Source: Acidilobaceae archaeon (lineage in GTDB: Archaea; Thermoproteota; Thermoprotei_A; Sulfolobales; Acidilobaceae). From it: a DNA stretch of 64,000 bases. The notes beneath the pieces are model-generated. The model searched no databases and was not told the DNA's origin. It was given only the letters and a program-made list of their open reading frames with translations. Numbering within the stretch: position 1 is the first letter of the stretch; each line of letters begins with the position of its first letter. The DNA lies in NCBI GenBank assembly GCA_027037535.1, contig JALVZQ010000007.1, positions 62,001-126,000 of the forward strand, given 5' to 3'. Below, one piece after another: positions 12,138-15,257 of the stretch. The position numbers and the translations under genes were made by a program.

Positions 12138-12161
12138 AGGTATTTCCCAAAGGAGATACCT
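12138..12161 (+). promoter_or_regulatory. Hairpin covering the ribosome binding site of the next gene
   Basis: Left arm AGGTATTTCC (12138-12147), loop CAAA, right arm GGAGATACCT (12152-12161): ten pairs with a single U-G wobble. The right arm contains the Shine-Dalgarno GGAG, and the ATG follows two bases later. As RNA it would hide the ribosome binding site; as DNA it is an imperfect 24-bp palindrome that could be an operator. Confidence 0.6.
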
Positions 12162-12162
12162 T

Positions 12163-12666
12163 ATGAAGATGCAGCAAATAGCACTAGTAATAATTATAAT
12201 GCTTATAATTACGATACTCGCCCTATCACTAAATACAAAAGCAGATGATAATGAATACTACGAAGAATACAATGAAAACGAAGGTGAAGAAACACTAGGA
12301 TCGATAGGCTTCTACGGAGGCTTATTCGCTACATTAATCTATATCATACCAAAATATACAAGACAATATCTAGGAATATCACTTCCACCAAAAATCTACA
12401 AATACACTCTAGACATACATAGCATAGGAAACCTAATCGCAGCAACAGCCGCATTTATTCACGGATACATAAACATACAATATGCTACAACACTCGAATA
12501 TGTAATAGTTGCTCTCATAATATTCCTAACAATTTCAGGCTTGATAATGAGATACGCAAAATCAAGGAAAATAAAACTAGCAATGAGACTAATACATTCA
12601 CAAAGAATACTCGCAATAATTCTACTCGTACTCGTTCTACTACATCAGGGTTTAGCAGAAGACTAA
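12163..12666 (+). CDS. Predicted membrane b-type cytochrome (four His, two helices)
   Basis: Membrane protein of 167 residues. Residues 6-26 are a signal or anchor helix, then a very acidic outside loop (DDNEYYEEYNENEGEE), then four hydrophobic helices near 48-65, 84-104, 112-130 and 143-162. Two helices each carry a His pair: H86/H100 in the second (DIHSIG...FIHGY) and H145/H161 in the fourth (LIHSQR...LLHQ). Spacings of 14 and 16 residues are those of bis-His heme ligands on opposite membrane faces, as in cytochrome b561 or ferric reductase-like proteins. I infer two b hemes and transmembrane electron transfer; the partner is unknown, but the downstream diiron-like protein is a candidate. 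Confidence 0.65.
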   Translation: MKMQQIALVIIIMLIITILALSLNTKADDNEYYEEYNENEGEETLGSIGFYGGLFATLIYIIPKYTRQYLGISLPPKIYKYTLDIHSIGNLIAATAAFIHGYINIQYATTLEYVIVALIIFLTISGLIMRYAKSRKIKLAMRLIHSQRILAIILLVLVLLHQGLAED

Positions 12667-12726
12667 ACCCCATTATCACTATCCTTTATTTTCGCTAAAC
12701 CTAACAATGTTTTAATTCTGGAAACT

Positions 12727-12755
12727 TCACAAATTGTGAGTCCGCGATTTTAAAG
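12727..12755 (+). promoter_or_regulatory. Operator-like palindrome and TATA box of the DUF2202 gene
   Basis: The 13-bp perfect inverted repeat TCACAAATTGTGA (12727-12739) sits eight bases upstream of a TATA-like TTTTAAAG (12748-12755). The position, just ahead of where the BRE and TATA box lie, suits a regulator that blocks or helps TBP/TFB binding. The winged-helix gene at 14988 is the obvious candidate regulator. Confidence 0.5.
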
Positions 12756-12806
12756 CTACTAGCAGCACTCCTAAACAGAACCAAAAGAAATATAGGTGAT
12801 ATGGAA

Positions 12807-13526
12807 ATGAAGTATGAGATCATACTCGGAATAATAATCGTATCAGTAGTGGCGGGAGCCTTTACTCTAAACCAAAGCTACCTAGACATGGTGACAACTA
12901 CTGTAACAAACGAAACCGATATAACTACCGAAACCACAACAGAGCTGACTACAACCACTGATACAACAGTAAACTATACGCTATCACAGGAAGAAATAGA
13001 TAGCATACTCTTCATGAGAGAAGAAGAGAAACTAGCCAGAGACGTATATCTAACACTATACGACATGTACGGAGTTCAAATATTCCAAAACATAGCTAGA
13101 AGCGAACAAAACCACATGGACGCTGTACTAACACTAATCGAGAAGTATAATCTAACAGATCCCGTAATAGACGAAGTAGGAGTATTCACTAATGAGACAC
13201 TACAGGAACTATACAACCAGCTAATCGAGCAAGGAAGCCAGAGTCTAACCGACGCAATACTAGTAGGAGCTCTAATAGAAGAAAAAGACATAATTGATAT
13301 AAATAACTTGATAAATGCAACTGATAATCCAGATATAATACAGGTCTTCAGCAACCTAGTCAACGGAAGCGCTCACCACTTAAAGGCGTTTTCAAGCGAA
13401 TACGAACAGATAACAGGAGAACCATACCAGCCACAGCTACTAACACCGGAACAATACGAAGCAACAATCTCTAGTGTAGCGATGGGTCCAGCAAATGCAC
13501 ATGGACCCGTTTGGGGTCAAGGTTAA
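12807..13526 (+). CDS. Secreted ferritin-like DUF2202 protein
   Basis: 239 residues. An N-terminal hydrophobic anchor (about 5-24) and a Thr-rich linker are followed by a DUF2202 ferritin-like four-helix domain: FMREEEKLARDVYLTLYD, IARSEQNHMDAVLTLIEKY, a third helix with LIEEKDIIDI, and NGSAHHLKAF in the fourth. The Glu and His residues at these places are those expected to bind a diiron centre. Six N-x-S/T sequons support surface exposure and N-glycosylation. Start ATG 12807 is chosen because GGTGAT ends seven bases before it; the ATG at 12801 touches that site. Likely extracytoplasmic oxidoreductase or metal-binding protein linked to the b-heme proteins around it. Confidence 0.82.
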   Translation: MKYEIILGIIIVSVVAGAFTLNQSYLDMVTTTVTNETDITTETTTELTTTTDTTVNYTLSQEEIDSILFMREEEKLARDVYLTLYDMYGVQIFQNIARSEQNHMDAVLTLIEKYNLTDPVIDEVGVFTNETLQELYNQLIEQGSQSLTDAILVGALIEEKDIIDINNLINATDNPDIIQVFSNLVNGSAHHLKAFSSEYEQITGEPYQPQLLTPEQYEATISSVAMGPANAHGPVWGQG

Positions 13527-13539
13527 TCTTTCCTTAATT

Positions 13540-13576
13540 AACAAATATTGTTTTTATTATTGATATAATTAAATTA
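13540..13576 (+). promoter_or_regulatory. Inverted repeat and AT-rich promoter
   Basis: AACAA-ATA-TTGTT (13540-13552) is a 5-3-5 inverted repeat sharing the ACAA...TTGT core with the palindrome upstream of the DUF2202 gene. An AT-rich TATA candidate ATAATTAAATTA follows at 13565-13576, then the GGTGA of the next gene. T-runs between 13529 and 13557 may also end the DUF2202 transcript. Confidence 0.4.
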
Positions 13577-13597
13577 TTTGAATAAAGGTGAGCAGCT

Positions 13598-13987
13598 ATG
13601 GGCTACAAGCTCGGTCTAGCAATCTCAATAATAATAGGAGTACTAGTTGCAACGTTTCCGCTGTATTCAGATAACATATCAGGCTACATATGGAACCTAA
13701 ATACAAGCTCATCTAGTGAAGGATCAGAAACGACTTACACTCTTCAGGGAACAGTAGAAGAAGTAGACGTCAACGAATCAATAATAGTAGTAAACGGTGT
13801 CGAGATCAAGGTGTTGGGTGCATGGATAACGCCAAATGGCACCGAGATAGAATCACAAGACCTACTTAAACTAATTAAACCAGGAGACCAGGTAACAGTA
13901 GTATACAGCCAACGCGGAAAATGGAGCTACAAACTCGAGGAAATAACAATAGAACCTACCGGAGAGCATTACGTAAAATCATCATAA
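13598..13987 (+). CDS. Secreted OB-like hypothetical protein
   Basis: 129 residues: N-terminal hydrophobic anchor (about 5-22), a short Ser-rich linker, then a beta-rich domain of about 75 residues (TYTLQGTVEEVDVNESIIVV, then KPGDQVTVVYSQRGKWSYKL) that looks like a small OB-like barrel of the DUF5666 kind. Three N-x-S/T sequons fit an outside location. No cysteines or His cluster, so a metal role is not evident. GGTGA six bases before the ATG. Only 17 bases separate it from the next b-heme-like gene, so they are co-transcribed. Confidence 0.65.
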   Translation: MGYKLGLAISIIIGVLVATFPLYSDNISGYIWNLNTSSSSEGSETTYTLQGTVEEVDVNESIIVVNGVEIKVLGAWITPNGTEIESQDLLKLIKPGDQVTVVYSQRGKWSYKLEEITIEPTGEHYVKSS

Positions 13988-14004
13988 TGAGGAGGTGAGC
14001 GATA

Positions 14005-14301
14005 ATGGGGAAAAACCTCATACTTGAGGCGAGAAGAGCAACAGTCATAATATTCGTAGCACTGGGACTCATAATACTAATATCAGGCATGATGCTAGAA
14101 ACAGCTCCCACCGGGCCTGGAAGCGGAGAGGCCACAGCACTAGGCATATCAAAGGAGACATGGGAAGACATCCACATCTATGCAAGCTTCATAGCTGCTG
14201 GAGCCGCAATAGTACACGCGTATACCAACTATAGAGGCATACTATATCATCTAGGACTGCTAAGACTCAAAAGAAGAAAGAAGGCAAATAAAAAACCGTG
14301 A
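14005..14301 (+). CDS. Small DUF4405-like membrane protein with His pair
   Basis: 98 residues, two hydrophobic helices (about 13-31 and 57-75) and a basic C-terminal tail (LKRRKKANKK) that places the C-terminus inside. The second helix has H57 and H71, 14 residues apart, and H82 follows in the loop. This resembles DUF4405/cytochrome b561-type heme helices. The stretch DIHIYASFIAAGAAIVHAY is close to the heme-helix stretch of the protein at 12163. Ribosome binding site GGAGGTGA before the ATG. A two-helix protein would need to dimerise or pair with another membrane protein to make a heme pocket. Confidence 0.65.
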   Translation: MGKNLILEARRATVIIFVALGLIILISGMMLETAPTGPGSGEATALGISKETWEDIHIYASFIAAGAAIVHAYTNYRGILYHLGLLRLKRRKKANKKP

Positions 14302-14338
14302 GATGTTACCAATAGAATCTTTGGCACGGGGAAAATAA

Positions 14339-14971
14339 ATGGACTCTCAAACATTCATTTTACTCTCAGCAGTAATCGCATATTCAGGAGCATTTACAAG
14401 CCTCTATATTAGCCTATCATTATTCAAGCTAGGGGAAGTCATAAAAGACAAAGGACTAACACTTTCAGCTATAGCAATGACTATATTTGGTATCTCACTG
14501 CTTATTGAGGCTACCGTGAATATCATGGCACCAACATATATTAGCGGTCCCGGAAGAAGACCCCAAGAACTCTTATCTATTCTAGTCAATCGAGGAACAC
14601 TCATAGCCATACCATTATACACGATTTCCTATGTGCTCATGGCATCTTCACACTATGTATCAGGAGTATCGTTAAGGGAAACGGCAATTCCCCCCAAAGA
14701 GTTCTCCGTTATACCATTATTCGTAATAATGTTTATAGACTACAACGTCATAGACTTAATCGTACTGATAGTTGCAGCTATAATAGTCCTAGGAAAATAT
14801 GGTTCGGCGAGACTGCCAACAGTAGTATTCTATATAGTTCTAGGAATTAGTCATCTCGTACCGGTAATGCTCTTATTTGCAAGCTCATCTTGGTGGATTG
14901 TACCGTTATCGACACTGTTACGAGGTCTTGCACCCCTGATACTGTTCGCATCGTCGTTATTGAAAGAGTAG
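14339..14971 (+). CDS. Polytopic membrane protein, about seven helices
   Basis: Not recognised. The 210-residue protein is almost entirely hydrophobic, with about seven membrane segments and short loops; one outside loop contains SGPGRRPQE. Two His residues (SSHYVSG and GISHLVP) are not arranged as an obvious heme pair. It sits in the middle of the b-heme/DUF2202 cluster, 37 bases after the DUF4405-like gene, with GGGG before the ATG, and is followed by the regulator. It may be the membrane partner or quinone-side subunit of this cluster; that is inference from position only. Confidence 0.6.
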   Translation: MDSQTFILLSAVIAYSGAFTSLYISLSLFKLGEVIKDKGLTLSAIAMTIFGISLLIEATVNIMAPTYISGPGRRPQELLSILVNRGTLIAIPLYTISYVLMASSHYVSGVSLRETAIPPKEFSVIPLFVIMFIDYNVIDLIVLIVAAIIVLGKYGSARLPTVVFYIVLGISHLVPVMLLFASSSWWIVPLSTLLRGLAPLILFASSLLKE

Positions 14972-14980
14972 GAGGCGATA

Positions 14981-14994
14981 GCACCCGATGGTGC
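14981..14994 (+). promoter_or_regulatory. Hairpin spanning the start codon of the winged-helix gene
   Basis: GCACC (14981-14985), loop CGAT, GGTGC (14990-14994). The start codon ATG (14988-14990) straddles loop and stem, so folding would compete with translation initiation of the regulator. Five GC-rich pairs. Confidence 0.35.
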
Positions 14995-15257
14995 GTAGAA
15001 AATATAGAAGTCAGGCAGGGATAGTCCACGACATACTCGAGGTACTGCAACGGGAAGGAGCCATGCCAGCCACGAGAATCGCCACATACGCTAATCTTCC
15101 CTATGATAGACTAAAACTAATCCTACTCTCTCTGGAAGAAAGTGGCCTGGTAATAAAAACCAAAGAGGGATACGATATTACCGAGAAAGGCCTAGAGGCA
15201 CTTAATACTCTAAGAAGAAGCAGGAAACTTCTAGAATCGCTAGGTTTCAGGCTGTGA
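14988..15257 (+). CDS. Winged-helix transcriptional regulator
   Basis: 89-residue archaeal winged-helix protein of the short predicted-regulator type (COG3432-like). Helices RSQAGIVHDILEVLQREG and MPATRIATYANLPYDRLKLI form the HTH, followed by a wing LVIKTKEGYDITEKGLEAL and a C-terminal helix for dimerisation. GGAGGCGA precedes the ATG by nine bases. Overlaps nothing but follows the membrane gene by 16 bases, so it closes the cluster and is likely its local regulator, possibly binding the ACAA...TTGT palindromes at 12727 and 13540. Confidence 0.8.
   Translation: MVRRKYRSQAGIVHDILEVLQREGAMPATRIATYANLPYDRLKLILLSLEESGLVIKTKEGYDITEKGLEALNTLRRSRKLLESLGFRL

Follow-up and report, generated by a model that had tools for sequence, protein, structure and literature searches.

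A five-gene archaeal operon that may encode an outward electron-transfer unit with an exchangeable surface protein

What function could join a run of small membrane and surface proteins to a DNA-binding protein at one locus of an Acidilobaceae archaeon? The locus (12138-15257) lies in a stretch of 64,000 nucleotides, here called the window, within contig 7 of a 1.65 Mb genome (G000) that is 99.94% complete (GCA_027037535.1, contig JALVZQ010000007.1, positions 62,001 to 126,000). Six open reading frames (ORFs) follow one another there on the + strand, with intergenic gaps of 134, 71, 17, 37 and 16 bp. An original prediction, made from the letters of the DNA, had placed all six genes on this strand and proposed that they form a surface system for redox or metal handling, in which electrons cross the membrane to a diiron site outside. 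We find this picture right in outline, with two corrections: the first gene, at 12163, stands outside the unit, and the fixed core is a pair of OB-domain and DUF4405 proteins with a swappable surface protein. In our reading the five genes at 12801-15257 constitute one operon, encoding an outward electron-transfer unit to a surface diiron or metal protein together with its own regulator, and we put the probability of this at roughly one half.

The first of the five genes (12801-13526, + strand, 241 amino acids) encodes a ferritin-like DUF2202 protein (PF09968; Pfam E 7.7e-59, 198.5 bits, above the gathering score and covering profile positions 1-161 of 162); the predicted gene is real, and its start is moved from 12807, the second in-frame ATG, to 12801. 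It is followed by an OB-domain protein of 129 amino acids (13598-13987, + strand), whose family profile matches CusF/SilF OB-fold chains in the PDB with an E of 1.6e-5 in a reverse search, the single protein scoring under the CusF Pfam cut-off. Next come a two-helix DUF4405 cytochrome-type protein of 98 amino acids (14005-14301, + strand; PF14358, Pfam E 7.7e-13, 49.2 bits against a gathering score of 26.7), a multi-helix membrane protein of 210 amino acids that we call TM7 (14339-14971, + strand), and a winged-helix protein of 89 amino acids (14988-15257, + strand; HTH_45, PF14947, Pfam E 2e-15, 57 bits against a gathering score of 25.5). The last is Sso10a-like in alignment and scores 52.3 bits against the Sso10a chromatin protein profile NF053610, under the curated cut-off of 60. 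These profile matches bear out the DUF2202 and winged-helix identities given originally and agree with the OB-like one. The DUF2202 and OB proteins, described there as secreted, do have their domain outside, and each is held by a single N-terminal helix that serves as a membrane anchor. For TM7, which matched no Pfam family, the predicted membrane protein stands, and of its seven helices the AlphaFold model gives six plus one weak stretch (pLDDT 70.6); weak seven-helix likenesses at most were found in a fold search (best E 0.12), and on the model a seven-helix protein is plausible. Matches in a PHROGs search were weak or unassigned at most.

The arrangement recurs in relatives. A DNA scan brought in, among others, an Acidilobaceae metagenome-assembled genome (MAG; L077), two Thermodiscus MAGs of the same family (L078, L079) and Pyrodictiaceae MAGs (L080, L081). 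The order DUF2202-OB-DUF4405-TM7-winged helix is kept in three other genomes of the same family, unbroken in L007 and L008 and running on to the contig edge in L006; the last four genes are present in L009, L036 and L083, and OB-DUF4405 in L033, L034, L035/L082 and L037, with a divergent transmembrane protein and a winged-helix gene across a shared promoter region in L033. An OB gene adjoins DUF4405 in all the close homologues examined, which come from several families. In families f9, f3 and f2 the protein encoded before DUF4405 is often an anchored one whose Ig-like domain is of the HxQPCP kind, and an OB domain is fused to it in several of these loci, L040:2188-3042, L043:8267-9109 and L044:9650-10483, where the Ig-like (HxQPCP...GCP motif)-OB proteins gave no Pfam match over the cut-off. 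The conserved neighbourhood that had been anticipated thus comprises five genes, 12801-15257, and leaves out 12163.

The gene at 12163-12666 (+ strand, 167 amino acids), formerly counted as a member, encodes a genuine four-His cytochrome-b-type membrane protein: 12 of 12 homologues keep all four of its His, two per helix in two helices, and its score against cytochrome b561 (PF01292) is 17.4 bits, under the gathering score of 30.1. It adjoins the cluster in just two cases, the window's genome and contig L038 (G095:C22:1-4888), which includes 12163, is about 90% identical to the window's genus and is binned with a family f9 genome, probably by mis-binning from the window's genus. The 12163-type loci read in eleven other genomes lie away from the cluster. 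We therefore rejected 12163 as part of the unit, given its separate position in other genera and a palindrome with a TATA-like box that lies between it and 12801.

How might such a unit move electrons? In the DUF4405 protein, His57 and His71 are spaced 14 residues; H71 is invariant among the DUF4405 homologues read and H57 is missing from a single one. The membrane His pairs pointed out originally in 12163 and 14005 are therefore no chance feature. Transmembrane electron transport is an established role of DUF4405 cytochromes. Heme b binding has been shown for two purified proteins, a bacterial DUF4405 and its relative FezC, and the latter has been modelled as a homodimer giving DUF4405-like sites (PMC11334425); by analogy, the 14005 protein would also bind heme. 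Since neighbourhood and His are conserved and these relatives bind heme b, a surface redox unit is well supported, and the electrons would pass from it to a diiron site. A homodimer would be needed for four ligands because each monomer has just two helices and a single His pair. Both termini are basic, suggesting that the chain begins and ends inside the cell; the outer face would then carry H57 together with the conserved GPGSG loop, and the inner face H71. This orientation, with the OB and DUF2202 proteins outside, fits electron transfer from inside to the DUF2202 metal site. Such a homodimer could carry a transmembrane stack of two b hemes, the outer on H57 and the inner on H71, taking electrons from the quinol pool or a cytoplasmic donor and handing them to the surface. 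There the anchored OB protein would act as a fixed docking or tether partner, and the anchored DUF2202 protein as an exchangeable terminal partner whose ferritin-like metal site becomes reduced and in turn reduces peroxide or another oxidant, or cycles iron outside the cell. We incline to the view that this wire serves a diiron site which reduces Fe(III) or an oxidant from outside the cell.

Elsewhere in the same genome lies a PF00115 protein of the heme-copper-type oxidase/NO-reductase family (L146:3648-5786; G000:C7:239647-241785), whose N-terminus, in our reading of the sequence, resembles quinol nitric oxide reductases, and its gene stands beside a probable Tat-type molybdopterin oxidoreductase. 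Together the two point to heme use and a quinol pool, and the organism may respire nitrate or NO. A scan with the heme-synthase profile TIGR04545 produced radical-SAM cross-matches everywhere and none above the cut-off.

The surface end of the unit is where the relatives differ. The 12801 protein matches MJ0754 in the PDB with an E of 2.7e-49, and Glu/His positions of its putative diiron centre are conserved. In L033, L034, L036 and L082 a different gene stands directly before OB. Its product carries an N-terminal anchor wherever the start is present, shows four conserved Cys and four conserved His in an alignment of three full-length copies, and belongs to no Pfam family; a search in plasmids gave no match. 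The AlphaFold model, mostly at pLDDT 80-94, consists of two repeats of two strands each with flanking helices, and the fold search (best E 0.003, low TM-score) pointed to no family. We considered that this could be a hidden ferritin and rejected the idea: the model is alpha/beta, and the protein is therefore neither a ferritin nor a DUF2202 homologue, despite occupying the same slot. The slot is thus exchangeable. The alternative Cys/His protein also occurs on its own, among others in the window's genome, away from the cluster (L107:7797-8456; G000:C3:326841). Genomes that have it also tend to have 12163-type proteins (Fisher 3e-8, by genome and uncorrected for shared ancestry). Lone DUF2202 genes in family f9 lie beside molybdopterin-synthesis-like (moa) genes (L068:6964-7746, L070:7366-8130, L071:2973-3737). 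In a phylum-wide sample of 280 genomes DUF2202 occurs in four only, all of one order, and a literature search on DUF2202 and MJ0754 found no papers.

Is the unit also regulated as one? A palindrome, TTCACAAATTGTGAG, at 12726-12740 (no strand), downstream of 12163 and upstream of 12801, is a putative operator and the sole site in the window within 2 mismatches; a TATA-like box, TTTTAAAG, follows at 12748-12755 on the + strand. Its core, ACRAWTYGT, stands ahead of the leading operon gene in the window and its same-genus contig L038, and in L007, L008, L009, L036, L033 and L034, making seven independent loci, at a chance of about 0.01 per 250-bp upstream stretch; the pattern was defined on the same loci in which it was counted, and the 7/7 figure is therefore somewhat flattering. 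In five loci, L038 counted, the palindrome starts 20-22 bp before the TATA-like box. Outside the operon, the palindrome stands before unlinked DUF2202 genes of two related Pyrodictium-like genomes (L065, L066) and before one lone alternative-surface-protein gene (L112); L037, where an ArsR-type gene adjoins instead, lacks it. The longer form CACRAWTYGTG occurs at two places only in the whole genome and is therefore not a general promoter element. The second of these (C8:7634) stands before a small membrane ORF that shows no link to the unit; we rejected it as a further target, since it fits chance and a reversed-pattern control gave equally many matches.

The likely binder of the palindrome is the operon's own winged-helix protein; L034 has the palindrome without a winged-helix gene next door. 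TM7 and the winged-helix protein would then form a putative sensor-regulator pair acting on the site before the operon. Pairs of this kind also stand alone in Pyrodictium-like genomes (L116:6505-7435, L117:6803-7734, L118:6355-7355), those in L116 and L117 near a multi-transmembrane transporter-like gene, and they possibly represent a general archaeal membrane-sensor/regulator module.

This mobility, taken with the retention of the pair beside OB-DUF4405 in several families and the strong operator before the operon, raises the thought that the whole locus is a sensing system, in which the surface, OB and DUF4405 proteins perceive redox state or metal outside, TM7 relays this to the winged-helix protein controlling a target, and electron flow makes up just one part of the signal. 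We consider this unlikely: L034 and L037 have OB-DUF4405 without an adjacent TM7-winged-helix pair, the redox part being therefore separable from the pair, and the genome offers few other palindrome targets. One could also speculate that the proteins handle copper, silver or iron outside the cell, with the OB protein as a CusF-like chaperone, DUF2202 binding or storing the metal and DUF4405 adjusting its redox state, as the CusF/SilF profile match and the residence of the DUF4405-like FezC in iron-storing ferrosomes (PMC11334425) would allow. The His and MxM ligands for Cu/Ag of CusF/SilF are, however, absent from 13598, where Trp alone aligns, and the Pfam scan found no pump or transporter inside the unit, which leaves us doubtful of this explanation too.

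A further possibility is that DUF2202 is an independent surface ferritin-like gene that by chance lies upstream of OB-DUF4405-TM7-winged helix in one family. Its adjacency is confined to family f1 and one contig resembling f1, it stands alone elsewhere, as beside the moa genes, and 71 bp separate it from OB. Other families, in contrast, fill the same slot with another anchored surface protein, the palindrome accompanies DUF2202 on its upstream side in the operon and likewise, in two genomes, where the gene is unlinked, and the two protein families go together by genus. Of the 229 genomes surveyed in the class, 15 have DUF2202, 22 have DUF4405 homologues and 11 have both; 6/7 genera with DUF2202 also have DUF4405, which is present in 14/87 genera (Fisher 3.8e-5, uncorrected for shared ancestry). 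A chance neighbour therefore seems to us improbable.

An outward electron-transfer unit remains the reading we prefer, built on the observed gene content, order, residue conservation, surface-gene swap, palindrome and co-occurrence, from which we infer the homodimer, the electron direction, the substrate and the palindrome-binding protein. Several points weigh against it, beyond the statistic just qualified and the way in which the palindrome was defined: heme, iron and electron flow are likewise inferred for the cluster proteins, DUF4405 has a different partner in some other families, several families have DUF2202 alone and distant from DUF4405, and in L009 H57 is lost, the outer His being Arg. 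L009 has neither DUF2202 nor the alternative surface gene before OB, and the loss of the outer His beside a missing surface gene is, as a single case, suggestive.

If the reading is true, Pyrodictium- and Pyrolobus-like hyperthermophiles would have in this operon candidates for redox reactions at the cell surface. Reduction of iron oxide in P. delaneyi is known to proceed by contact and to involve unusual proteins (PMC8105010); the passages covered of a P. delaneyi proteomics paper make no mention of the cluster genes, its locus tags not being mapped to genome G183. We tentatively suggest, at somewhat less than even odds, an undescribed class in hyperthermophilic archaea, in which a minimal homodimeric two-heme cytochrome and a fixed OB tether are combined with a swappable surface protein (DUF2202 diiron, Cys/His-rich alpha/beta or Ig-like) and switched on by their own membrane sensor and operator.

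The closest known systems are the bacterial extracytosolic DUF4405 cytochromes (PF14358; Huang et al. 2024, PMC11334425), which share with 14005 the Pfam domain, the membrane His and neighbours acting outside the membrane. The bacterial form described has six helices with four His and frequently goes with ApbE and flavinylated proteins, whereas 14005 has two helices, one His pair, and OB and ferritin-like partners, with no ApbE or flavin-carrying domain among the ten proteins scanned with Pfam at the locus. If the reading is right, DUF4405 cytochromes would include an archaeal form that works without flavin, beyond the flavin-linked systems of bacteria, and 14005 would possibly be among the smallest natural transmembrane two-heme bundles. 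FezC of ferrosomes is similar in its DUF4405-like character, and has heme b, a homodimer model and an association with iron (PMC11334425); no FezB-type ATPase or other ferrosome gene is found among the cluster neighbours, the partners here being surface proteins. To the periplasmic OB-fold metal chaperones CusF/SilF (PF11604) the OB protein shows a likeness at the level of its family profile, its own score lying under the cut-off; it lacks the Cu/Ag ligand set, carries a membrane anchor and is constantly paired with a cytochrome. Finally, MJ0754 of Methanocaldococcus jannaschii (DUF2202; PDB 3q4n, 3q4o, 3q4q, 3q4r) matches 12801 over the full DUF2202 domain, with the EEEK, SEQxH and xHxxAF motifs in common. 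It is named 'uncharacterized protein' in the PDB, whereas 12801 is anchored outside, in a cytochrome operon, and our reading would thus give a likely function and partners to a family of solved structure that is still filed as uncharacterised.

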